From Larkinella rosea (GTDB taxonomy: Bacteria; Bacteroidota; Bacteroidia; Cytophagales; Spirosomataceae): a stretch of DNA of 64,000 nt. The notes beneath the pieces were generated by a model. The model ran no database searches. It was not told the DNA's origin and saw nothing but the letters and a program-made list of their open reading frames with translations. Both the position numbers and the translations under genes were made by a program. Shown here one piece after another: positions 37,240 through 47,856 of this stretch. The DNA lies in contig NZ_RQJO01000011.1 in assembly GCF_003858635.1 (NCBI RefSeq), positions 439,739-503,738 on the forward strand, read 5' to 3'. Position 1 is the stretch's first letter. Each line of letters starts with the position of its first letter.

Positions 37240-37488
37240 TTATCCTCCGCTGACCGGCGGAATCAGGGCAATTTCGTCGTTGGGGTGCAGGGGCTGGTTT
37301 AATTCGGCGTATTCGCCGTTGACGGCCACCAGCAGCGACCGAAGGCCGGTCAACGCGGGATATTGTTCTTTAAGATTCGACAATAATTCGCCCACCTGAC
37401 CGGTTTTGGGCAGGTCGAGCGTCAGGGCCGAGGTGCCGACGATCTCGCGGGTGATGCCAAAAAGTTGAACAGAAACTCGATTGCTCAT
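37240..37488 (-). CDS. moaD: Molybdopterin synthase sulfur-carrier subunit MoaD
   Basis: 82 residues from ATG 37488; a TTG at 37494 would overlap the FHA gene by 4 bases. Ubiquitin-like fold ending in the diagnostic Gly-Gly tail ('IPPVSGG'), which is activated as a thiocarboxylate. 'LRSLLVAVNGEYAELNQPLH' is typical of MoaD. It starts 2 bp after the FHA gene stop, so it is very probably translated from the same mRNA as the FHA/kinase cluster. Confidence 0.93.
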   Translation of the reverse strand: MSNRVSVQLFGITREIVGTSALTLDLPKTGQVGELLSNLKEQYPALTGLRSLLVAVNGEYAELNQPLHPNDEIALIPPVSGG

Positions 37489-37490
37489 GC

Positions 37491-38390
37491 TCAAAGATAC
37501 GAAAACAACAAAACAACTTCACCACCCAACTCAATTTGGTCGCCATCCCGAAGCGGGTAACCCATTCCGGCAATGTCGGCTCGTTCGATGGTGTTGTCCG
37601 GGTGCATGATTTTCGTTTTGTTGCCGCTGGCGGGCAGCCCGCCCGAATCGACCAGCAGTGCATACTGTCGCTGGGGAGCATTGTATTGAATTGTTGCGTG
37701 CGCCCGGCTAACCGCCCCGTTTCCCGCTCCTTTGATCGGATCGAAACCGGCATCTTCGTCGTTCAGAATCACAATGTCGTTGGTTCGTACCCGGCCCGAG
37801 GTGGTTTGGGCCGTATGGCCGCGACCAATGCAAAACGTCGTTTTCTGGACCGAATTGAGTACATACTCGGCTTGCTCCGTTTGTCCGACCAGCGCCACAA
37901 CCCGGGCCAGCAGCGGGACGGCACCGGTTTTTGAATGGTCCAGTACCAGTAGCCCCAGGTTTCCTTCCCGGTAGGTACTGGCTGGCAATTCATCCGTAAA
38001 AAAGGCGTATTCAAACTGCCAGTTTTTGGGTAGAACAATGTAATTGTCGGCCAGTTGCCGGTTTAATTCCTGTTGAAATTTCCCCGGCTGACTGGCCCAC
38101 AAGACGACCCGGTACAATTCTTCGTCTTCCGGCGTCGGACAAAGAATCGCGAGTTTAAGGCCGATCGGAGCGGTTTCCGGTTCATTTTGATACGCCCGTA
38201 GTTTATTGATGATAAACCGGAGGAGCTGATCCCGGCGCGGGGCAGCAGGAGGGGGGCCGGATCGAACCGGTTTTGGCGCCGTCTGCGTTGATTCGACGCG
38301 CCTGATTTCGGGGGCCGGCGCAGCCACTGCGGCTGGTGGTTCCGCCGGTGTAAACCCGAATAGTTTCTTCACATTTTCCAGAAAGCTCAT
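37491..38390 (-). CDS. FHA-domain phosphothreonine-binding protein
   Basis: 299 residues, no signal or membrane segment. A Pro/Ala-rich linker (~15-50) and an N-terminal alpha/beta region (~52-180) precede a C-terminal FHA domain: 'CIGRGHTAQ' (G-R, ~187), a long insertion, then 'GAVSRAHATIQYN' (S-x-x-H and N, ~226-238) and 'LRDGDQIELGG' (~280). FHA domains bind phosphothreonine, here plausibly on the adjacent kinases or the cell-wall synthase. Lies 20 bp after the SEDS-PBP fusion gene. By position and content it parallels FhaB/FipA of actinobacterial clusters. Confidence 0.85.
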   Translation of the reverse strand: MSFLENVKKLFGFTPAEPPAAVAAPAPEIRRVESTQTAPKPVRSGPPPAAPRRDQLLRFIINKLRAYQNEPETAPIGLKLAILCPTPEDEELYRVVLWASQPGKFQQELNRQLADNYIVLPKNWQFEYAFFTDELPASTYREGNLGLLVLDHSKTGAVPLLARVVALVGQTEQAEYVLNSVQKTTFCIGRGHTAQTTSGRVRTNDIVILNDEDAGFDPIKGAGNGAVSRAHATIQYNAPQRQYALLVDSGGLPASGNKTKIMHPDNTIERADIAGMGYPLRDGDQIELGGEVVLLFSYL

Positions 38391-38410
38391 AAATAATGTC
38401 GGTTTGCGGG

Positions 38411-41400
38411 TTAAAAGCTACCCAAATATCGGCGTTGTTTTAAGATGGGAGCCACGACAGTATTCGCCAGATTGACAGCATCCGCCGAGGATTCACCCAA
38501 TTCGATGCGCACGGTTACGACGGTATTTGACCGGCCATCGGGCGTTGGAGCGAAAAATACGTACCAGCCGTCGTTTTCCTGAACGCCCTGCACGATCCGT
38601 TCGGGCGTACCGGTTTTTCCGGCCACCCGCGCAATGCTGATCTTGCTCCGTCCCGGCGGGTTCGACTGCTCGATCATGAATTCCTTCAATTGTTCCGCGT
38701 AATCCGGATTGCGGGCGATCGGTTTGCCGGTTCCGACCGATCGCGGTTTTCCGGCCTGGGACACCACGTAGCGCGAGGGTTGCAGGATGCCTTTATTGGC
38801 AATGGCTCCTGCCATTCGGGCCAGGGCTGCGGGCGTTGTGGACAATTGCCCCTGTCCCCAGGCCAGCCCCGAAAACTCACCGCGATACCGTCTCGGATAC
38901 TGCAAACTTTGGTAGAGTTTCCGACGAACCACAAACGAGGAGTCGCGCCAGTGCTTCCGAATCTGCTGGTCTTCCAGAGCCGTGTGCGTATCCGAAAACG
39001 AATAACCGCCAATGTAATCGACGTTCATGCCCGTCGCCAGATAAAGATCGGACAGTTCTTTGTCCAGCGCCTGATCGTTCGCCAGCCGGATGAAATACAC
39101 GTTACTCGACCGGACAATGGCCTTTCGCATGTCAACCGATTCGCCACAGGGTTCCGACTCCCGCGGCCCCCGGCGAATGATTTCCTGACACGAAATGGCA
39201 TACCGAATCGCCGAGGCCGATGAGCCCAGTTTGTTAAAAGCGGCCATTGCCGTCATAATTTTCGCCGTTGAGCCGGGGGCCGTCGGGAAGGTCATGCCCA
39301 GATCCCGTTCGGTCACCAGGTAGGGCAATTGCAGCCGCTCCCGGTCCGATAACAACATGGCTTCCGGGGTTTTCAGATTGGGCAGGGGATGGATGGCTGA
39401 TGCCAGAACATCGCCCGAAGCCGCATCCAGCACCACTACCGAAAGGCGTTTGTCCCGGTATTGCGATTGTGCCAGCGATTGCTGCAAAGCCACTTGCAAA
39501 CCGGCGTCGACGCTCAGCGACAGATCGCGGTTTTTCGCTTTTCGCTCGGCGACTTCGCGGCTGTCGATGCCCGCCCGCAACGCCGGTGCCAGTTCCCGGT
39601 AATCATAAACCGACAGCGTACGGGTTTGTTGCACCGTCGGGCTAAAGCGATCGGCCCGGTAGTTGGTGGCAACAAGCTCGGTTTTGCGGGGGCGGCTGTT
39701 AAAACCGCGCAACTCGCTGAAGTGCGTAGCCTCAGCATAATACCCGTTGCTTTGTCCCCAGAACAATTGCGTGTTCAAATCGCCCGTCCAGAAAAACAGG
39801 TGTTCGCCGAAGGGATAATAGCGTTGCAATCGCTTCTGAGCAATCTTTTTCACCTGATCCGACTCCAAACCGCTTTGCTTCAGTCGTGCTAATTGCTCCG
39901 TAACCCGTTCCGGCGAACTCGTAGCCAGCACCAGGCCCTTTCGGTCGTAAATTGTGCCCGAAGCCAGCACCCGCGTCAGCCGCTCGATCCGGGGATTGTA
40001 GCTGTAAATGGGGTCGCCGGTGCGGGTGATGACCCGGGCGGGCCGCACAATGTAGTCGTTCCCACGCCAGCCCACAATCGGAATTAACCGACCAATCAAA
40101 ACCGCTACGCCGATCAGAAAACCCGCAATACCGGCCATCAGCACGGCGTCGTAGTTTTTTTCGAGGTATTCGCGTTGCTCGACCTGTCCCGGCCGGTGTG
40201 CCACACTGAACACGACACCCATCGCCATGAGGTTGATGATGAGCGAAATCTTGCCGTAACTCAGAAACGGCACGCTAATGCCCGTGAGCGGCAGCAAACC
40301 GATGGAACCACTGGCGATAATGAGAAATTGAACACCCGTCGCGATGGCAATACCGGCCACCAGAAAAAAACTGAACGGCTGACCCGCCCGCCGGGCGTGT
40401 AAAAACGTCCGATGGAGCAGAATGCCCATGAGCAGAAAAACCGCAATGACGCCCAGGCCGCCCAACTCTTCGCCGACACTGGGCAGAATCATATCGGTAT
40501 GGGCGGCTGGCATGGCATTCGCAAAACCCTTTCCCAGACCCTGCCCCGTCCAGCCGCCCGACGCCAGCGTCCAGAAACTATGCGCCAGGTGATCACCGCC
40601 GTAGACATCGTTGTTCCACGGGCTCAGCCAGATCGCTTTGCGGTCGGCCAGGCGGTTTCCGACAAAAGGCAATTGATCGCCAAATGTAAATATAGCGATC
40701 ACCATCAGGAGCAAAACCGGTGCTTCCGTCAGTAATGCGGCCCAACCCAATGCGGTTTTGGAACGAGCCTCGCCCCGCCAGAACATATAGCCGATCAGAG
40801 TAATGAAGCCAAGAACCGTTGCCAGCCAGCCGGGCAGCAGCCACAAGGCGATCCCATAGCCAAGACCTGTTGCGAGCGTGAGCGACAGGTTTCCCCGGGC
40901 AATGCTATAGAACAATAAAAACGTGAAACAAACGACTAGCGCCGGGCCCATATCGCCCAGCAACAGGTACAGCAGCATGAGTAAACCGGCCCCGGCCAGC
41001 GCCCCGAAACTCACCGCGAACCGCCACCGTAAATCGGGCAGTTGGCGAATTTTCTGCTCGTTGGCGGCAAAAAAACCGGCAAAGAAAACCAGCAAGAGGT
41101 ACTTGGTGATTTCACTCGGCTGGAACGTCAATCCCAAAACCGACAGGTTGACCCGGACGCCACTGCCTTCCGGCCCCGAACCAATAAACAATGTCAAGGT
41201 AGCAAGACCCAGGGCAAGCACCAGCCAGGTCCAGCCCGATAAACGCACGGAAGAGCGGTTGTAAAACGCAAAGAGCGCGTCGAACCGCCAGTCGGCGTAA
41301 AACCGGCCGATGTTGAGCTGCGATATAATCAGCAAACCGAACAGGCCAGCCGCCACGCCCTGCAGCGTCTGCCAGGCAAAAAGCGTATCCTGCAACGGGT

Positions 41401-42394
41401 CCTGAATGGCCAACAGCGTCAGCACGGAAATCCCCGTTAACAGCATGAGGACCGGCAAAAGCAGCGGATCGGCGTAAAACCGCCGAACGGACCAGATACT
41501 ATGCACAGCCCAGAAAGCACCAATAAATAGCGTGATGATAATCCAGAATTGTACGGTAAAAGCCGTTGGCGTGCGGACAATAAACGCATGATCGGACTTC
41601 AGTTGGCTATAAACGACGGAGCCGATGAGCCGGATCTGGTGCGGGCGGGCCGTAAAGGTAAACGATTGATTACGGGTCAATTGGCTCGTCCCCCGGCGGC
41701 TGCCAAACTCGAAACCGGGTTTGAGCGCAACCACACTATAGCCTGCATTCGCTGTCAAACCCGTAAAGGAAAACCGCCCGTCGGGATCGGTTCGGGCGTA
41801 CGAAAACCGGTCGGGCAGCGTATCCGGCTGAGCGGTGGCGGGGTGACTTTTGAGCTGGACCAATACACGGGCCATCGGTTGATCCTTCTCTGCGTGCGTA
41901 ACCCGCCCCGAAATGCTGGCTGATCCGTTGCCCGCGCCGACAATGGCCGGATACGGTTTTGGATCGTTGAGTTCGCGGATATACAAGACCGAGTCGAACC
42001 CCATTTGCTGGCGGGAGAGTTGCAGGCGATTTTGAAAGTCGGCCCCACCAATCCGGCTGCGCCAGGCAACGGGTGCCTGAATGGAAAATAACCGCTTGTT
42101 AATGGCTCCCAGGTTATCGGGCGACCCATTTTGACCCAGCTTGTGCGCTAACGAATCGGCCACCAGGGTGCGATCCGCGGGATCGCTGTAGTAATTGCCG
42201 CTGTCGAGTAAACGCTGGATCGCGGCTGGTTTCAAACCGGGCTGTAACGGGACGGCCTGTCCGTTAACGAGGGCTTGTTTCGCCAGATTCAGCGCGGGAG
42301 ACAGGTTGATGTACAGACGTATAGCCAACAGGAGCAATAAGACCGATGCACCCAATAAATACAAACGACCCGACGATACCGAAGGAACTTTCAT
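38411..42394 (-). CDS. SEDS (RodA/FtsW) peptidoglycan polymerase fused to a class B penicillin-binding transpeptidase
   Basis: 1,327 residues without interruption. Order: helix ~11-28; extracytoplasmic region with an Ig/carboxypeptidase-regulatory-like domain ('ISGRVTHAEKDQPMARVLVQ', ~160-250); SEDS multi-helix domain ~281-730 with 'FQPSEITKYLLLVFFAGF' (~424), 'GDMGPALVV' and the family motif 'HTDMILPSVGEELGGLG' (~630); another helix ~750-770; then a transpeptidase domain with S-T-A-K (Ser ~1042), S-S-N (~1096) and K-T-G (~1260). SEDS proteins polymerise lipid II glycan and class B PBPs cross-link it, normally as two interacting proteins; here one chain carries both. It follows two kinase genes and precedes an FHA gene. 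Confidence 0.93.
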   Translation of the reverse strand: MKVPSVSSGRLYLLGASVLLLLLAIRLYINLSPALNLAKQALVNGQAVPLQPGLKPAAIQRLLDSGNYYSDPADRTLVADSLAHKLGQNGSPDNLGAINKRLFSIQAPVAWRSRIGGADFQNRLQLSRQQMGFDSVLYIRELNDPKPYPAIVGAGNGSASISGRVTHAEKDQPMARVLVQLKSHPATAQPDTLPDRFSYARTDPDGRFSFTGLTANAGYSVVALKPGFEFGSRRGTSQLTRNQSFTFTARPHQIRLIGSVVYSQLKSDHAFIVRTPTAFTVQFWIIITLFIGAFWAVHSIWSVRRFYADPLLLPVLMLLTGISVLTLLAIQDPLQDTLFAWQTLQGVAAGLFGLLIISQLNIGRFYADWRFDALFAFYNRSSVRLSGWTWLVLALGLATLTLFIGSGPEGSGVRVNLSVLGLTFQPSEITKYLLLVFFAGFFAANEQKIRQLPDLRWRFAVSFGALAGAGLLMLLYLLLGDMGPALVVCFTFLLFYSIARGNLSLTLATGLGYGIALWLLPGWLATVLGFITLIGYMFWRGEARSKTALGWAALLTEAPVLLLMVIAIFTFGDQLPFVGNRLADRKAIWLSPWNNDVYGGDHLAHSFWTLASGGWTGQGLGKGFANAMPAAHTDMILPSVGEELGGLGVIAVFLLMGILLHRTFLHARRAGQPFSFFLVAGIAIATGVQFLIIASGSIGLLPLTGISVPFLSYGKISLIINLMAMGVVFSVAHRPGQVEQREYLEKNYDAVLMAGIAGFLIGVAVLIGRLIPIVGWRGNDYIVRPARVITRTGDPIYSYNPRIERLTRVLASGTIYDRKGLVLATSSPERVTEQLARLKQSGLESDQVKKIAQKRLQRYYPFGEHLFFWTGDLNTQLFWGQSNGYYAEATHFSELRGFNSRPRKTELVATNYRADRFSPTVQQTRTLSVYDYRELAPALRAGIDSREVAERKAKNRDLSLSVDAGLQVALQQSLAQSQYRDKRLSVVVLDAASGDVLASAIHPLPNLKTPEAMLLSDRERLQLPYLVTERDLGMTFPTAPGSTAKIMTAMAAFNKLGSSASAIRYAISCQEIIRRGPRESEPCGESVDMRKAIVRSSNVYFIRLANDQALDKELSDLYLATGMNVDYIGGYSFSDTHTALEDQQIRKHWRDSSFVVRRKLYQSLQYPRRYRGEFSGLAWGQGQLSTTPAALARMAGAIANKGILQPSRYVVSQAGKPRSVGTGKPIARNPDYAEQLKEFMIEQSNPPGRSKISIARVAGKTGTPERIVQGVQENDGWYVFFAPTPDGRSNTVVTVRIELGESSADAVNLANTVVAPILKQRRYLGSF

Positions 42395-42410
42395 GCAAAT
42401 GTGTTGAGAA

Positions 42411-43697
42411 TTAATTACCCGTCTTCGTTGAATCGGGGGCGGTTTTGGTTGAATCCGGGGGCGATTCCGGCGCGGTGGGAGCGCTGGGTTCGGCCGTGGT
42501 TGCCGGGCTGTTGTACAGTTGGGTTGAATCGATTACGCTTTCAACGGGTTCGTCCGACGAGGAGGTGGCAGTGTCTTCTTCCATTTGTTCCCTTGCCGAC
42601 GAGTCCGTTACCATCGTCGTCGAGTCTGGCGAAATAACCGTTTCGTTCCTGTCTTTCTTTCCTTCGTACGTATAAAAAACCGCTAAACCAATCAGAATAA
42701 CAACCAGAACGCCCAAACCAATTCCCCAGCCAGACAAGCTGCGGGCCGGTTCTTCTTCCGGTTCGGACAAATCCGGTTGTGGCAGTGGTTGGGGAGCGGC
42801 CATTGTGCGGGACACGACTGGCGGACGCAAACCGGTTGGTCGGCGGTTTTGCAACTGTTCCACATTCGCCTGACCGAACAGCAGCACCAGTTCGTTGACG
42901 TCGCTCAGCCGCTCGGCCGGGTTTTTGGTGAGCGTCCAGTCCAGAACGGTGCTGAGGCTGGGGGGCAGAAACTGGTCCGCTGGCAGAAAAACCGGTGGCG
43001 GTGGCGTCTGCAAAACTTCCCGCATAAACGTGGCAATACCGGTATTACCGGCCATCGAGAACGGCACCCGGCCCGACAGACATTCGTACAAAACGACGCC
43101 CAGCGAATAGTAATCCGTGGCTACATCCACACCCCGGGGATTGTCGAACTGCTCGGGGGAGGCATATTCGTACGTCATCAGCGATTGACCGGTCATGGTT
43201 TGCGTCTGTTCGCGCAACCGGGCCACGCCGAAGTCCGTCAACAGAAAATGCAGTTCGCCACTCGGCAAAGACCGAAATAGAATATTTTCCGGTTTGATGT
43301 CGCGGTGAATGATTCCGCGCGGATGAATCGCCTGAAAGGCTTCGGCCATTTGCAGGCCCAGCCGGATGACGGTCTGTATTTCCAGGTGCCCTTTTTCGGT
43401 CAGCAGCGTCCGTAAATTACCGCCCTCGATCCACTCCATAACGATAAAAGGCATGGGCATATCCAGTTGAACCTCCCGCACACTCACCACGTTCGGGTGG
43501 CGAATGTCGGTCATCAGCTGCGATTCGAGCCGAAACCGCCGGAGCGTTTCGGCGTCGGTATTGAGGGCGAAGTGTTTGATGGCCACCAGATCACCGCTTG
43601 CCAGGTGACGGGCTTTCAGCACACGGGCGTTCGAGCGGCCCAGTTCGCCGATAATTTCGTATCCCGGAAAATGCGTATTGACGCTGACGGTTGGCAT
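42411..43697 (-). CDS. Membrane serine/threonine protein kinase (second of the tandem pair)
   Basis: 428 residues. Kinase domain ~10-275: degenerate glycine loop 'ELGRSNARVLKA' (no G-x-G-x-x-G), Lys41 in 'AIKHF', catalytic 'HRDIKPEN' (Asp132), 'DFGVAR' (Asp155), 'YEYASPEQF' (activation-loop end). A juxtamembrane segment and one helix (~323-344) follow, then a ~85-residue Ser/Thr/Glu/Pro-rich extracytoplasmic tail without PASTA or other recognisable domain. Closely similar to the upstream kinase through the catalytic domain, so a tandem duplicate. 4 bp separate the two kinase genes and 16 bp separate this one from the SEDS-PBP gene. Confidence 0.95.
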   Translation of the reverse strand: MPTVSVNTHFPGYEIIGELGRSNARVLKARHLASGDLVAIKHFALNTDAETLRRFRLESQLMTDIRHPNVVSVREVQLDMPMPFIVMEWIEGGNLRTLLTEKGHLEIQTVIRLGLQMAEAFQAIHPRGIIHRDIKPENILFRSLPSGELHFLLTDFGVARLREQTQTMTGQSLMTYEYASPEQFDNPRGVDVATDYYSLGVVLYECLSGRVPFSMAGNTGIATFMREVLQTPPPPVFLPADQFLPPSLSTVLDWTLTKNPAERLSDVNELVLLFGQANVEQLQNRRPTGLRPPVVSRTMAAPQPLPQPDLSEPEEEPARSLSGWGIGLGVLVVILIGLAVFYTYEGKKDRNETVISPDSTTMVTDSSAREQMEEDTATSSSDEPVESVIDSTQLYNSPATTAEPSAPTAPESPPDSTKTAPDSTKTGN

Positions 43698-43701
43698 GGG
43701 T

Positions 43702-45285
43702 TCATTCGTTGGTTGTTGAGTCGATGGCGGCTGGTATCACGCGCATCAGGGAATCCAGATTTTTCGGCAAATCATATTTCAGAATTTTGCAACTGATCCG
43801 GGTTCCCCGGTCGCTGTCGGGAGCCGACCGAACGGGTGAGGAGTGGGGCGGAACGTTTATAAAGAAGATTTTCTCGGTTTTATACAGCCCGCCCTGATCT
43901 TTGAAATAACTGATCTGAACGGCCACCGCCGGAAACGGAAACGGGCTGGGGTTCTCTAATTGAATCCGGGCCTGTTTGATGCCGCCGAAGAAACCAACTT
44001 TTAAACCAAGCACGTCGACGCTCAGGGTTCTGCCCGCAGCGGCCACCTGTTCCCGGATCTGCTCACGCCGTTTGGCTTGTTTTGCGCGATAAAGATTCAT
44101 GGTATCCTCCTCAACAGCAGCGGTTTCTTCGTCCGTTTGCTGAGCCGGAGCAAGGGCGGCTGTGGTATCGTTGCGGGGCAGTACATTGGCGATGGGTTTC
44201 GGTATGGAACCGGTATTGGCATAATAGAGACCCGCGCCAACCGCCAGCACAACCAGTACGAGAACGGCCAGTACCCACGGTTTTCGCGATGGATTTGGCC
44301 GGGCCGGACTTGCCGGTTCTGGTTTTAAGGGGCCCGATTCGGGCCGAACGGCCTCGGGCACTTCGGGTTTGGGTCTGGTCTTACCCGAATCAATAACGCT
44401 GGCCGGTGGTGCAGTTTTGGAACTGGTTCGGTTCGTGCGCAGGAAGTTCAGCTCCGACTGCTTCAGTAACCATGTCAGCTCGTCCGGATCGTTCAGGCGC
44501 TCGCTGGCTTTCTTTTTTAACAAGCCTTCCAGCAATTCCCGAAACAGATCCAGCGTCGGATTTTCACTGGTCAACGTCAGGGCGGGGGGCGCTTCGGTCA
44601 GCACTTTGTTCATGAAGGTCACAATCCCTGATTGATCGTCGAGTGCAAACGGCACGCTGCCGTGCAGGCATTCGTACAAAACCACCCCCAGCGAATAGTA
44701 ATCCGTGGCCGGACCAACGCCCCTGGGGTCGTTAAACTGCTCGGGCGATGCATATTCGTACGTCATGAGCGATTGTCCCGTCAGCGTATTGGACTGTTCG
44801 TGCAGCCGGGCAATGCCGAAATCGGTCAGCAGAAAATGCAGTTCTCCGCTGGGCAGGGGGCGATACAGAATGTTTTCCGGTTTTACGTCGCGGTGCACGA
44901 TTCCCTGCGGGTGAATGGCCTTGAATGCACTTGCCATTTGCAGACCCAGCCGGATGGTGGTCGAAATGTCGATGCGGTTTTGACCGGCGATGAGTTGTTT
45001 CAGGCTGCCGCCTTCGATCAGTTCCATCACGATGTACGGTAGCTCGGCTTCCAGCTGCACCTCCCGAACCTTCACCACGTTGGGGTGGGCAATGCTGGTC
45101 ATAATGGACGATTCCCGCTGAAACCGGCGGAGGGTTTCGTCATCAGTATTGAGGGCGAAGTGTTTGATGGCCACCAGATCACCCGTAGCGAGGTGACGCG
45201 CCTTCAGAATGCGGGCGTTGCTACGCCCCAATTCACTCAGCACTTCGTAGCCCGGAAACCGTGTATCAAACCGGATGGTGGACAT
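43702..45285 (-). CDS. Membrane serine/threonine protein kinase (first of the tandem pair)
   Basis: 527 residues. Kinase domain ~10-275 with Lys41, 'HRDVKPEN' (Asp132) and 'DFGIAR' (Asp155); the glycine loop is again degenerate ('ELGRSNARILKA'). A Pro-rich linker leads to one helix (~337-355). The ~170-residue extracytoplasmic part has a charged helix ('YRAKQAKRREQIREQ', ~399-413) and a compact beta-rich domain (~420-505: 'LSVDVLGLKVGFFGG', 'PFPAVAVQISYFKD'), unlike PASTA repeats. Its start codon overlaps the phosphatase stop by one base (TAATG), implying coupled translation of kinase and phosphatase. Confidence 0.95.
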   Translation of the reverse strand: MSTIRFDTRFPGYEVLSELGRSNARILKARHLATGDLVAIKHFALNTDDETLRRFQRESSIMTSIAHPNVVKVREVQLEAELPYIVMELIEGGSLKQLIAGQNRIDISTTIRLGLQMASAFKAIHPQGIVHRDVKPENILYRPLPSGELHFLLTDFGIARLHEQSNTLTGQSLMTYEYASPEQFNDPRGVGPATDYYSLGVVLYECLHGSVPFALDDQSGIVTFMNKVLTEAPPALTLTSENPTLDLFRELLEGLLKKKASERLNDPDELTWLLKQSELNFLRTNRTSSKTAPPASVIDSGKTRPKPEVPEAVRPESGPLKPEPASPARPNPSRKPWVLAVLVLVVLAVGAGLYYANTGSIPKPIANVLPRNDTTAALAPAQQTDEETAAVEEDTMNLYRAKQAKRREQIREQVAAAGRTLSVDVLGLKVGFFGGIKQARIQLENPSPFPFPAVAVQISYFKDQGGLYKTEKIFFINVPPHSSPVRSAPDSDRGTRISCKILKYDLPKNLDSLMRVIPAAIDSTTNE

Positions 45286-46703
45286 TAATGACGTATCGTT
45301 TTAGATGAATCAGCCTGATTCTGTAAAGTAACCTGTATACCGACATTGCGGAACGTATCCTGGCGAACAACCGCCTGAACCGGCAAATCTACGTTGCGAA
45401 AGTACACCTTTGTCAGCTGCAATTTCGTTTTGGGAGTGGTTTCAATGCCGGTTTTAAAACCGCTGATGACAATGTTCTCGACATGCACCGGACCGGAATG
45501 ACTGATCCGGAATGCCAGCGGTACTCGCGCACTGTCGGCCGGAACAAAAACCGTCAGCCGCTGATCACCCAGGAGGCTAAGCAGGGAATCGTTCAGTACG
45601 ACCGGTTTGGTCAGTCGGAACGTATCTGCGGGCAATGTCAACTGGTGATCGGGGCTTCGGGAAGCGGCTTGCAGCAGGGAGTCCAGTCGGGCAACCGCCG
45701 AGGAATCTACCGGAAACATGTCATCCGTCACGAGTTCGGCAGTACTGATAAGATCGTCGACAGGCCGATTGTTGTACCAAACCAGCCCAGCGATGCCACC
45801 AACCACGAACAGGCTCAACAGAATCCAGATGCCCAGCAGACTGCGTTGGGGCGGTTTTGGGTTTGGGGCAACCGCGTTGGGCCTGACGGGTGGGGCAGAA
45901 ACCGGTTTTGGTATGGACTTTCGGGCGGGCGGAATGGAACGCCCGTTGACCGGCGTCTCGTTCCGGGCCAGCACTACCGTAATATTATCGTTCCCGCCCT
46001 GCTCATTGGCCAGACGAATCAGCGCGGTTACCTGCTCGTCGAGGGACACGTTCTGATCCAGAACACTCCGGATCTGGGCCTGTGTAATCATATCGGTCAG
46101 GCCATCGCTGCACAGCAGCAGTTGATCGTCCGGCAGAAAATCCGTCTCGCCCGATTCCAGAAAATCCGGATCATCGACGCGGTGGTGCAGGGAGCCAACG
46201 TCGCGCAGAATTTCATTCCGTCGGGGGTGCTGCATGGCTTCGGCTTCCGTCAGTTCGGCCGCGTCTTCCCGCGCGCCCACCATCGAATGGTCGCGGGTGA
46301 GCTTTTCAAGGATGTCCCGGCGGTATCGGTACAGGCGGGTATCGCCCACGTGCACAAAATAGAGCTTATTCGTGCGACTGTCGGCCACGGCAGCCGTTAA
46401 CACGCAACACATTTGCGCCAGCTGGCGGTTTTGTTCACGCTGGCTGTTGATCTGGTTATTGGCAAAAACGACGGCTTCGCGCAGCATCGACAGCGGATCG
46501 CCGTTGGGTGTGGCCATATACTGTTCAATCGATTCCTTCGCGATAGCCGCAGCCCGGTCGCCCCCGGCATACCCGCCAACTCCATCAATCGCGGCCAGCA
46601 GCACGCTGGATTCCGACCAGATTGGTGTGCAGATAAAGGTATCCTGGTTATCGGTTCGGCGTTGGCCTACATCAGTCTGACCGGCAATTCGGAACGAATT
46701 CAT
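45285..46703 (-). CDS. Membrane-anchored PP2C-family protein phosphatase (PstP-like)
   Basis: 472 residues. The cytoplasmic PP2C domain (~1-245) has all metal motifs: 'RRTDNQD' (~15-21), 'AIDGVGGYAGGD' (~38-49), 'FVHVGDTRLYRY' (~116-127), 'LLCSDGLTDMI' (~196-206) and 'GGNDNITVVLAR' (~235-246). A Pro-rich linker and a single helix (~292-312, 'LGIWILLSLFVVGGIAGLVW') follow, then ~155 extracytoplasmic residues of short strands ('VHVENIVISGFKTGIETTP', 'KVYFRNVDLPVQA') that look like right-handed beta-helix turns. It should dephosphorylate the two kinases and their targets. PstP of actinobacteria has the same catalytic-helix-ectodomain order. Confidence 0.95.
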   Translation of the reverse strand: MNSFRIAGQTDVGQRRTDNQDTFICTPIWSESSVLLAAIDGVGGYAGGDRAAAIAKESIEQYMATPNGDPLSMLREAVVFANNQINSQREQNRQLAQMCCVLTAAVADSRTNKLYFVHVGDTRLYRYRRDILEKLTRDHSMVGAREDAAELTEAEAMQHPRRNEILRDVGSLHHRVDDPDFLESGETDFLPDDQLLLCSDGLTDMITQAQIRSVLDQNVSLDEQVTALIRLANEQGGNDNITVVLARNETPVNGRSIPPARKSIPKPVSAPPVRPNAVAPNPKPPQRSLLGIWILLSLFVVGGIAGLVWYNNRPVDDLISTAELVTDDMFPVDSSAVARLDSLLQAASRSPDHQLTLPADTFRLTKPVVLNDSLLSLLGDQRLTVFVPADSARVPLAFRISHSGPVHVENIVISGFKTGIETTPKTKLQLTKVYFRNVDLPVQAVVRQDTFRNVGIQVTLQNQADSSKTIRH

Positions 46704-46772
46704 TGAAAAAGGGAAACGTGAAAAATGGAACAGCTCTCGTTAAAGAACCGCTGACCGGACAAACTGTTGCCT

Positions 46773-46856
46773 TTACCGGGGTAAATCCCGAAAATGGCGG
46801 ATCACCAACAGCAGCACAAAAGCCAGTAAAAGAACCACAACCAAGGCATCAATCAT
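46773..46856 (-). CDS. 27-residue single-helix membrane microprotein (candidate)
   Basis: An ATG at 46856 opens a 27-codon frame ending TAA: 'MIDALVVVLL' + 'LAFVLLLVIR' + 'HFRDLPR'. It has an acidic N-terminus, ~17 straight hydrophobic residues and a basic C-terminal tail, as expected for a small membrane subunit with the basic end in the cytoplasm. The start overlaps the end of the FhaA-like gene by 8 bases, and the PP2C start is 70 bp downstream, so it would be translated within the operon. No family recognised; small size makes chance possible. Confidence 0.5.
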   Translation of the reverse strand: MIDALVVVLLLAFVLLLVIRHFRDLPR

Positions 46857-47856
46857 GACGTTGGAACGTTAACGTGACCATGCTATTGAGCAAAATCTGA
46901 GCCTGATCCGGCAGGGTGTACCAGTGCGGATTCGCCGGTTCGCTGCGGGGAATGAGTTGTTCGTTCACCCGCGTTTCGTTTCGGCTGAAGGAAGCGATCT
47001 GGAAATGCTGTAGTTCGTCGTTGTAGCGAATCCGGGCGTGGGGGTTCGATACGTATGCCGATTCGAGCAACAGGTAATTGGGAAAATGCTGGTTTTCGGG
47101 TTCTTTGCGGGCCACTACAATCTCCCGGTCGCGCATCAAATACGAATCTTCCTTGTTCAATTCCGCAATGTAGTGCGTGATCTGGGCCAGTCCGGCACCG
47201 TGGCTGCGCGGTAATCCCGGCGCCGGCTGGGGTGCAGAAGCTGCGGTCGAAGGTCGTGCCGTTGGGGCTTTGGGAATCTCAAACCGAAACTTGACCACAA
47301 ACGCCCCCGGTTCCCGAAAGTCGATATGCTGGAAGGTGTTGAAGTCAATATCTACTTTTTCGAACCGATTGGTCTGCTTGACCCGGCGGGTGACGTGAAT
47401 TCGATCGGCCGACTGAGCCTGTTCATTACCGGGTAAAATACCGGTCAGGGCACCGACCACTTTCACATCCGCCGGACCGATGGGCTCGCCCCCGAACTCG
47501 CGACCGCCCCCAAACTTGAAATACCAGCTGGAAGCCACCGGAACGATGTTTTCAAACTGCTCTTTCTTCGATTCGATGCGGTTTTTAAAAGCGTCGACGG
47601 CTTCGTTGACGATTACCGGGAAGGCATTCTGGCGCGCTTCGTACGTATCGGGATGCAGAATAATCAGAAAATGAGCGTTGAACAGCATACTTTTTCCGAC
47701 GGATTCGCGCTGCAAAGAATCTTCGAACGACGCAATCAGTTCGTTCAGAATGCGCGTATTGGTAACGGTAGCGATCGGATCGACCCGGGTTGGCTGGGAA
47801 GTCGGTACCAGTAGATTTCCTAATTTACTAAGCCAGTCGCTGGGCTGATCTGCCAT
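46849..47856 (-). CDS. FhaA-like protein: N-terminal FhaA_N-type region plus C-terminal divergent FHA domain
   Basis: 335 residues from ATG 47856 ('MADQPSDWLSKLGNLL'); the longer frame is unlikely. Region ~35-115 ('LNELIASFEDSLQRE', 'AHFLIILHPDTYEA', 'WYFKFGGG') recalls the N-terminal domain of mycobacterial FhaA (DUF3662) in order and spacing. The match is by eye only. The C-terminus (~255-335) carries 'LLLESAYVSNPHARIRYND' with the FHA S-x-x-H and R-x-N features and ends in strands 'ILLNSMVTLTFQ'. First gene of the kinase/phosphatase/cell-wall cluster. Cytoplasmic; possible phosphothreonine reader. Confidence 0.7.
   Translation of the reverse strand: MADQPSDWLSKLGNLLVPTSQPTRVDPIATVTNTRILNELIASFEDSLQRESVGKSMLFNAHFLIILHPDTYEARQNAFPVIVNEAVDAFKNRIESKKEQFENIVPVASSWYFKFGGGREFGGEPIGPADVKVVGALTGILPGNEQAQSADRIHVTRRVKQTNRFEKVDIDFNTFQHIDFREPGAFVVKFRFEIPKAPTARPSTAASAPQPAPGLPRSHGAGLAQITHYIAELNKEDSYLMRDREIVVARKEPENQHFPNYLLLESAYVSNPHARIRYNDELQHFQIASFSRNETRVNEQLIPRSEPANPHWYTLPDQAQILLNSMVTLTFQRHD

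Follow-up and report, generated by a model that had tools for sequence, protein, structure and literature searches.

The window analysed here, 64,000 nucleotides of the Larkinella rosea genome (NZ_RQJO01000011.1, positions 439,739 to 503,738; family Spirosomataceae, Bacteroidota), carries on its minus strand a run of seven genes (37491-47856) with gaps or overlaps of -8 to 69 bp. In order of transcription they encode an FhaA-like protein, a 27-codon microprotein, a PP2C phosphatase, two serine/threonine kinases (STK1 and STK2), a single protein in which a SEDS glycosyltransferase is fused to a transpeptidase, and a second FHA protein, FHA2. On balance, we consider it probable that this module specifies a peptidoglycan synthase that is accessory, horizontally mobile and controlled locally by Ser/Thr phosphorylation, and that it is a diverged relative of the actinobacterial wall-control cluster. 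A relative of that cluster, with its synthase in one polypeptide, would thus be present in Bacteroidota; phospho-control of peptidoglycan synthesis is best known in Gram-positive bacteria.

Kinship of the SEDS–transpeptidase fusion

The first-pass annotation had named seven genes on one strand with tight spacing, and all are present. A Pfam scan confirmed FHA in two genes, each barely above the cut-off, PP2C in one, Pkinase in two, and FTSW_RODA_SPOVE together with Transpeptidase within a single open reading frame (ORF). The fusion is ordered as a transmembrane (TM) segment, a periplasmic ectodomain with an immunoglobulin-like (Ig-like) CarboxypepD_reg match, the SEDS part, a further TM segment, a pedestal (so called by its position) and the transpeptidase. 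The Asp of the SEDS HTD motif and the transpeptidase S-x-x-K, S-x-N and KTG, which we take to be the active-site motifs of the two enzymes, are kept in all 25 aligned fusions; locus L012, with broken frames, was excluded from this alignment. One stretch of the ectodomain (N-x-G-x-x-N-K ... G ... R ... S ... G) is conserved and holds also in two sequences from another class. Its model (predicted local distance difference test, pLDDT, 86) gave Foldseek matches to CnaB/pilin and dioxygenase folds, all with low TM-scores, and we regard it as Ig-like, with no finer fold call.

A SEDS domain (PF01098) and a transpeptidase (PF00905), both with their active-site motifs in one ORF, bear out the fused synthase that had been proposed, but SEDS–penicillin-binding protein (PBP) fusions as such are not new. 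Natural single-ORF fusions are already mentioned in print, in the accessible part of PMC10449877 without organism or context, whereas those described here form one clade, have fixed FHA partners and carry an ectodomain before SEDS. A second, very diverged SEDS–PBP fusion occurs in genome G131 (L049 5165-9088). Its neighbours include a kinase and a protein weakly matching DUF4384, and no FHA gene was found in its 14.8-kb contig.

The 8.17-Mb genome of the window has three SEDS proteins, namely FtsW, RodA and the fusion, as well as separate FtsI and PBP2. These were named by tree position beside named RodA, PBP2 and PBP2B rows, and PBP2 also by its adjoining RodA. A PF01098 search of ten further genomes, of which nine carry the fusion, likewise found separate SEDS proteins in all ten. 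The presence of separate FtsW, RodA, FtsI and PBP2 marks the fusion as a predicted additional synthase beside intact FtsW/FtsI and RodA/PBP2.

Phylogenetic comparison places the SEDS half outside the local FtsW and RodA. In a tree of Bacteroidota only, 16 fusion SEDS halves form one clade apart from 22 separate SEDS proteins (support 100/100). Adding outgroups gave a single clade (100/99) made up of 13 fusions, five actinobacterial RodA and a Monoglobus (Clostridia) SEDS, apart from all FtsW and the remaining RodA. The cluster origin of the actinobacterial RodA was established in Nocardia from ORFs matching PP2C, SEDS, PBP and two kinases in order, in Tsukamurella and Actinomyces from annotation, and in Nonomuraea and Embleya by similarity only. 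This final tree leaves out the fusions of the Rhodococcus plasmid pLW2 and of L093 and L106, an R. ruber FtsW-like row and the second G131 fusion (L049); L012 was excluded from every tree. Approximately unbiased (AU) tests, with groups picked after the tree was seen, rejected joining the fusions with Bacteroidota FtsW (p 0.0044), with RodA (p 0.0003) or with both (p 0.0003), and did not reject joining them with actinobacterial RodA alone (p 0.41). The SEDS half is orthologous to neither Bacteroidota FtsW nor RodA, as it would be in a canonical FtsW–FtsI or RodA–PBP2 pair. Its place in the actinobacterial RodA clade, together with the rejection of the local FtsW and RodA, shows at the level of sequence that it is a relative of the cluster RodA, by kinship rather than mere analogy.

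Comparison of whole loci indicates both likeness and divergence. The actinobacterial gene order, FhaA-FHA-PP2C-SEDS-PBP-STK-PknB, was taken from one record; a second is the same without a listed PP2C. A conserved actinobacterial fhaA-fhaB-pstP-rodA-pbpA-pknA-pknB locus, and pknB–fhaA linkage in some Firmicutes, are described in the accessible part of PMC6554272. Like the clusters of Actinomyces oris (L110) and Tsukamurella (L109), the window combines FHA genes, a membrane PP2C, SEDS, a class B PBP and two kinases on one strand, with FhaA first, PP2C after a short TM-bearing gene and a SEDS protein of the cluster-RodA clade. Unlike them, it has SEDS and PBP fused behind an added ectodomain, with no separate PbpA. 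Its kinases precede the synthase, lack PASTA domains and are not one clade between lineages, a 27-aa TM microprotein stands in for FhaB, and a soluble second FHA gene lies at the end; the module is also patchy, mobile and found beside intact FtsW/FtsI and RodA/PBP2. The proposal that this is the same functional module as the M. tuberculosis cluster therefore survives in its synteny and is exceeded by the SEDS kinship, but it is not borne out for the kinases, which lack PASTA and are not shown to be the PknA/PknB pair, or for FhaB, which is absent as such. In Monoglobus (L111 7539-10524), FHA, SEDS and PBP genes lie in a row and the SEDS protein belongs to the fusion/actinobacterial RodA clade; the PBP is separate, however, and no kinase or PP2C is annotated within 17 kb, in a gene table that may be incomplete. 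A literature search by title and abstract returned nothing treating such a cluster in Bacteroidota, which is weak evidence of novelty, as most subscription papers lay outside its coverage.

Conservation, co-inheritance and mobility of the module

The families compared are that of the window, Spirosomataceae (f1; Larkinella and Spirosoma), and two others of the same class (f4 and f5). Ten named loci of Larkinella and Spirosoma carry the fusion. Across the 13 f1 loci examined (the window, L005-L014, L035 and L036), FhaA, PP2C, STK1, the fusion and FHA2 occur in every one, although the frames in L012 are broken; STK2 occurs in 11. FhaA, PP2C, the fusion and FHA2 are also present in all seven loci of the two other families (L037-L043), where kinases lie before and after, or in L038 after only. 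Among the loci of another class (L044-L048), all five have the fusion between FhaA and a second FHA gene, and one (L046) has PP2C. Some of these genes were assigned by place, size or alignment (FhaA of L045 and L047; FHA2 of L047 and of L044, the latter having no Pfam match at 0.01). Conservation of the neighbourhood had been set beforehand as a test of the first-pass annotation. It holds across related and distant Bacteroidota, and the first of its refuting outcomes, loss of the neighbourhood in related genera, did not occur. In Spirosoma telluris (L012 4306-15062), several module genes are in broken frames, from sequencing errors or decay. A further module type in G539 (L147, G539:C1:1093000-1112999) has the fusion, PP2C and FhaA on one strand, and FHA2-like and kinase-like genes opposite.

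The distribution is patchy. Among sampled genomes, which overlap between the phylum, family and class sets, the fusion occurs in 15/395 of the phylum and 46/200 of the family, and its N-terminal domain in 8/345 of the class and 6/195 of another class. FhaA was found in 47 of the 200 family genomes, comprising all 46 fusion carriers and G509, which has FhaA and PP2C at a contig end and no fusion. Comparison of the two tables by eye placed FhaA within 10 kb of the fusion in 42/46. In G533 the module is split, with FhaA-PP2C-STK1-STK2 and fusion-FHA2 about 79 kb apart and every part retained, while G447 has FhaA alone on a separate contig. Because the fusion and FhaA co-occur in 46 of 200 genomes and FhaA without the fusion in one, the module is co-inherited.

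In the modules, FhaA is immediately followed by a short ORF with a single hydrophobic helix. The Larkinella and Spirosoma form encodes 27 aa ending in HF(Q/R)(D/N)LPR at all 12 loci tried, with a non-synonymous to synonymous ratio (pN/pS) of 0.20 over all pairs, and it is present also on a Spirosoma oryzicola plasmid. The f4 and f5 version has 32 aa and an HFxDIK-like end (HFAEIK in L038; 22 aa in L043), and that of the other class 27-31 aa. A search of the slot, which accepted ORFs of 20-40 aa with a strong hydrophobic stretch starting -20 to +60 nt from the FhaA stop, found the microprotein in 24 of 26 modules, compared to 6 of 336 other genes of the same loci as a control. L036 and L039, the modules missed, have it with a different start or farther away; L012 entered the gene-order counts, and its microprotein, which is whole, entered the microprotein count. 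Together, the relatives and the pN/pS value show the microprotein spotted at first reading to be a real gene under selection, as judged from sequence comparison. The corresponding slot in Actinobacteria, between fhaA and pstP, holds FhaB, which has an FHA domain and starts with a hydrophobic segment (Tsukamurella, Actinomyces, Nocardia), while here the slot holds a 27-aa TM protein without FHA. It may be FhaB stripped of its FHA domain, although this is a guess, since hydrophobic helices resemble one another by chance.

Mobility is indicated by a plasmid copy and by discordant trees. In S. oryzicola, the six annotated genes of a complete module lie on a 136,743-bp circular plasmid (L094, NZ_CP089545.1 66405-88286); a response regulator and a sensor kinase follow them. 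The FhaA, PP2C, FHA2 and SEDS of the G033 (f5) module group with f4, and the genome's own FtsW and RodA group with G269 (f5). The moved module would be either that of G033 or that of G269, which is on a long branch. G530 (f1) carries a second module with its SEDS within the f4-type clade (100/100) and with FhaA, PP2C, fusion, FHA2 and kinase 55-67% identical to f4 proteins. The plasmid copy and these two apparent transfers show the module to be horizontally mobile.

Similar genes occur also on Rhodococcus plasmids. The conjugative Rhodococcus plasmid pLW2 (L105, NZ_CP079227.1 49032-72060) carries DUF4407, PP2C, FHA and a SEDS–PBP fusion, and another Rhodococcus plasmid has a similar PP2C/FHA/fusion order. 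As in the window, PP2C, FHA and fusion genes adjoin, but pLW2 has no kinase annotated in 23 kb, no TM microprotein between PP2C and FHA, and a very long SEDS branch. In an earlier SEDS tree, pLW2 and Nocardia RodA joined the fusions (92/96) and the lone Rhodococcus fusions of L093 and L106 did not, all on long branches. On the Rhodococcus plasmids L093, L106 and L107, the fusion has no annotated FHA or PP2C neighbours, and the genes nearby are for metal handling or transport. Searching plasmids with the FhaA of L044 returned no match, but it also missed FhaA genes known in two such records and is uninformative.

Signalling partners and competing explanations

Both FHA proteins of the window are without a hydrophobic segment. 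FhaA scores 22.2 bits against PF00498 (cut-off 20.7), and the top PDB rows for its AlphaFold model are FHA domains. Its N-terminal domain found no convincing partner among the matches listed (PDB, Foldseek), only weak stray matches such as AcrB. A distant FhaA, that of L044, passes FhaA_N (PF12401) at 27.4 bits with a cut-off of 25; L046 falls below it, at 19.9. By hhalign, the N-domain of the window family aligns with that of f4/f5 at E 1.6e-23 and weakly with its other-class counterpart (E 4e-4, probability 34). The FhaA identity is thus putative, through a chain having one weak link. FHA2 has a conserved N-terminal domain without a Pfam match and then a C-terminal FHA domain, in which GR and SRxH are kept in 19/19 aligned. 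The FHA alignments leave out L047, and that of FHA2 also L046, where the second FHA gene bears a HEPN_Swt1 domain.

PP2C, STK1 and STK2 each have one hydrophobic segment after the catalytic domain (290-308, 338-356 and 323-341, respectively). The C-terminal part of STK1 has no Pfam match above cut-off, and the STK2 tail is short and Ser/Thr/Pro-rich. The Pfam scan found no PASTA domain in the window kinases, which score 203 and 188 bits against NF033483 (cut-off 450) and do not make up a pair of PknA and PASTA-bearing PknB. VAIK, HRD and DFG, which together with a GxGxxG loop we read as kinase motifs, are kept in 18/18 window-family kinases read. The module kinases are likely active, since all keep the aspartates. 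A grouping of the window-family kinases with PknA/PknB is neither supported nor rejected (AU p 0.077). The phosphatase has the PP2C motif strings and scores 189.6 bits against NF033484, under the cut-off of 230. Nine PP2Cs of modules group as a single clade (100/99), separate from the three other PP2Cs of the window genome and with no resolved tie to PstP. At the limits used, that genome holds 8 Pkinase and 4 PP2C places, so the module kinases and phosphatase are not its sole ones.

From these parts we infer a working scheme, conjectural in each of its phosphorylation, binding and enzyme steps as well as in its input signal and the time at which it is used. The membrane kinases would respond to an envelope signal by phosphorylating threonines of their own and of partner proteins, by analogy with M. 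tuberculosis. There, according to the accessible part of PMC6180346, PknB phosphorylates CwlM and MurJ, phospho-CwlM binds the FHA domain of FhaA, and FhaA is a phospho-dependent hub for wall synthesis. Differences in FHA motif retention make FHA2 the likelier phosphothreonine reader, with FhaA perhaps more of a scaffold; FHA2, and in part FhaA, would bring the kinase and synthase, and perhaps precursor proteins, together at the membrane. From the slot in which Actinobacteria have FhaB with its membrane anchor, the microprotein may link the FHA scaffold to the synthase. The SEDS half would polymerise lipid II and the transpeptidase half would cross-link strands, while PP2C would reverse phosphorylation and reset the system.

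Several observations weigh against a common origin with the actinobacterial cluster, or against working phospho-control. As to origin, the SEDS branches are long. The transpeptidase halves form one clade that stands beside actinobacterial PbpA (ActPbpA) and Monoglobus at just 63/35, and grouping them with ActPbpA alone is rejected (p 0.010). The N-domain of the window FhaA has no Pfam match to FhaA_N (PF12401, DUF3662), and aligning window-family FhaA directly with actinobacterial FhaA by hhalign gives E 0.12, not significant. The module kinases are not one clade, as window-family pairs, f4/f5 pairs and the two G269 kinases differ; the AU test rejects a single clade of all of them (p 0.0039) and of window family plus f4/f5 (p 0.016). 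FhaA lies apart from the fusion in 4 of 46 genomes. Kinases that differ across lineages, a transpeptidase half and a PP2C without resolved ties to PbpA and PstP, and an FhaA N-domain that fails PF12401 would suit a cluster built within Bacteroidota from local FtsW/RodA, PBP, kinase, PP2C and FHA genes, with a convergent resemblance only. We judge this unlikely: the SEDS half sides with the actinobacterial cluster RodA (100/99) and the local FtsW and RodA are rejected, the distant FhaA passes PF12401, and the order FhaA, TM-bearing gene, PP2C is common to both.

As to function, GR together with SxxH, residues we assume to be important for phosphothreonine reading, is complete in 4 of 20 aligned FhaA, all of the other class. 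Those of the window family have AR with SxxH and Asn (9/20), and those of f4/f5 have neither GR nor SxxH (7/20) and might not read phosphothreonine. The glycine loop of window-family kinases is GRSNAR or GRGNAR instead of GxGxxG in 18/18 read, with GRSNAR in both STK1 and STK2 of the window (42411-45285). HGD replaces HRD in 12/12 kinases of L037-L042, with the Asp retained, and L043 has HRD and HND. No kinase was found near the other-class modules L044-L048 by blastp with the window kinases, or by Pfam on part of the L044, L046 and L048 ORFs. With no nearby kinase found in these five, and no PP2C in four of them, local phospho-control is not universal.

Such findings raise the question of whether the kinases, PP2C and FHA proteins have some other target or have degenerated, leaving the fusion as a spare synthase that stands alone and might, for instance, tolerate wall-targeting compounds. 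The five other-class modules with FhaA, fusion and second FHA gene but no nearby kinase found, the odd kinase loops, the incomplete FHA motif of FhaA and the Rhodococcus plasmid fusions, which can stand alone in the stretches read, are consistent with this. Against it, FhaA is co-retained in 46/46 fusion carriers, even where loci are split (G533, G447), FHA genes flank the fusion in all five modules without kinases, and the FHA2 motif is kept in 19/19. We consider this explanation improbable. That the SEDS half makes or moves a non-peptidoglycan polymer, e.g. an exopolysaccharide, with the Ig-like ectodomain as an adhesion module, is scarcely credible, for although the ectodomain resembles CnaB/pilin-type folds (at low TM-scores) and the module is accessory and plasmid-borne, the SxxK, SxN and KTG kept in 25/25 point to peptidoglycan stem peptides and the SEDS Asp is kept as well.

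Returning to a phospho-controlled accessory synthase, the synthase, FHA proteins and microprotein are suggested to be a constant core and the kinases a changeable input, because the other-class modules are without local kinases and kinases differ elsewhere. A more speculative extension, which we put forward tentatively, is a transferable, plasmid-carried cassette. Its fixed core would be the synthase, the FHA scaffold, the microprotein (the FhaB anchor minus FHA) and usually PP2C, into which lineage-specific kinases are plugged, and kinase exchange would rewire it to new envelope signals. If true, the cassette would show how the actinobacterial cluster could be dismantled and rebuilt. The fusion settles which SEDS pairs with which PBP, so that kinase effects on the synthase can be tested on one protein. 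Varying kinases set against a constant FHA/microprotein core may help to tell input from output. For the connection of FHA scaffolds to a SEDS synthase, the conserved microprotein offers a candidate that is small and open to testing. Plasmid carriage implies that a wall synthase plus its own signalling can be cargo.

Gene inventory and neighbouring genes

Features of the module in the window, with coordinates and supporting evidence
Feature	Position	Strand	Evidence
FhaA-like, 335 aa	46849..47856	-	N-terminal alpha/beta domain and C-terminal FHA; motif AR, SxxH, N
Microprotein, 27 aa, single-pass membrane (MIDA...HFRDLPR)	46773..46856	-	Relatives, pN/pS, slot occupancy
PP2C Ser/Thr phosphatase, 472 aa, one TM, C-terminal part past membrane	45285..46703	-	PF13672/PF00481
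STK1, 527 aa, Ser/Thr kinase with TM	43702..45285	-	PF00069 152 bits
STK2, 428 aa, Ser/Thr kinase with TM, paralogue of STK1	42411..43697	-	PF00069 152.4 bits
SEDS–transpeptidase fusion, 1327 aa	38411..42394	-	PF01098 134, PF00905 79, PF13620 33 bits
Fusion, N-terminal ectodomain, ~residues 31-270	41585..42304	-	Model pLDDT 86; conserved stretch
Fusion, SEDS glycosyltransferase part, ~residues 310-735, Asp in AHTD	40190..41467	-	Pfam, motif, tree
Fusion, class B PBP transpeptidase part, residues 985-1318, STAK, SSN, KTG	38441..39442	-
FHA2, 299 aa, no TM	37491..38390	-	PF00498 21 bits, cut-off 20.7

FhaA and the microprotein overlap by 8 nt, and a gap of 69 nt separates the latter from PP2C. 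PP2C and STK1 overlap by 1 nt, and the remaining gaps are 4 nt (STK1-STK2), 16 nt (STK2-fusion) and 20 nt (fusion-FHA2). The FhaA start at 47856 is correct, as relatives begin at the same Met. Scans for promoters (4, compared to 6.4 in shuffles) and terminators (15, compared to 16.4) gave counts not above those of shuffles, and the operon claim therefore rests on spacing and conservation.

The first-pass annotation had set the lower limit of the cluster at 37240. This is the end of moaD (ThiS family, 37240-37494), one gene too far, and the cluster ends at 37491. moaD overlaps FHA2 by 4 nt, provided that its TTG start is right. moaD and moaE were rejected as module members, because they adjoin the cluster in the window but in just 4 of the 12 further family loci (L005, L006, L007 and L013, all Larkinella) and are absent there in the other 8. 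In two GC-rich genomes of the other class, a LysM/SLT lytic transglycosylase gene lies ahead of FhaA (L046 2072-4342 and L048 1949-4153).

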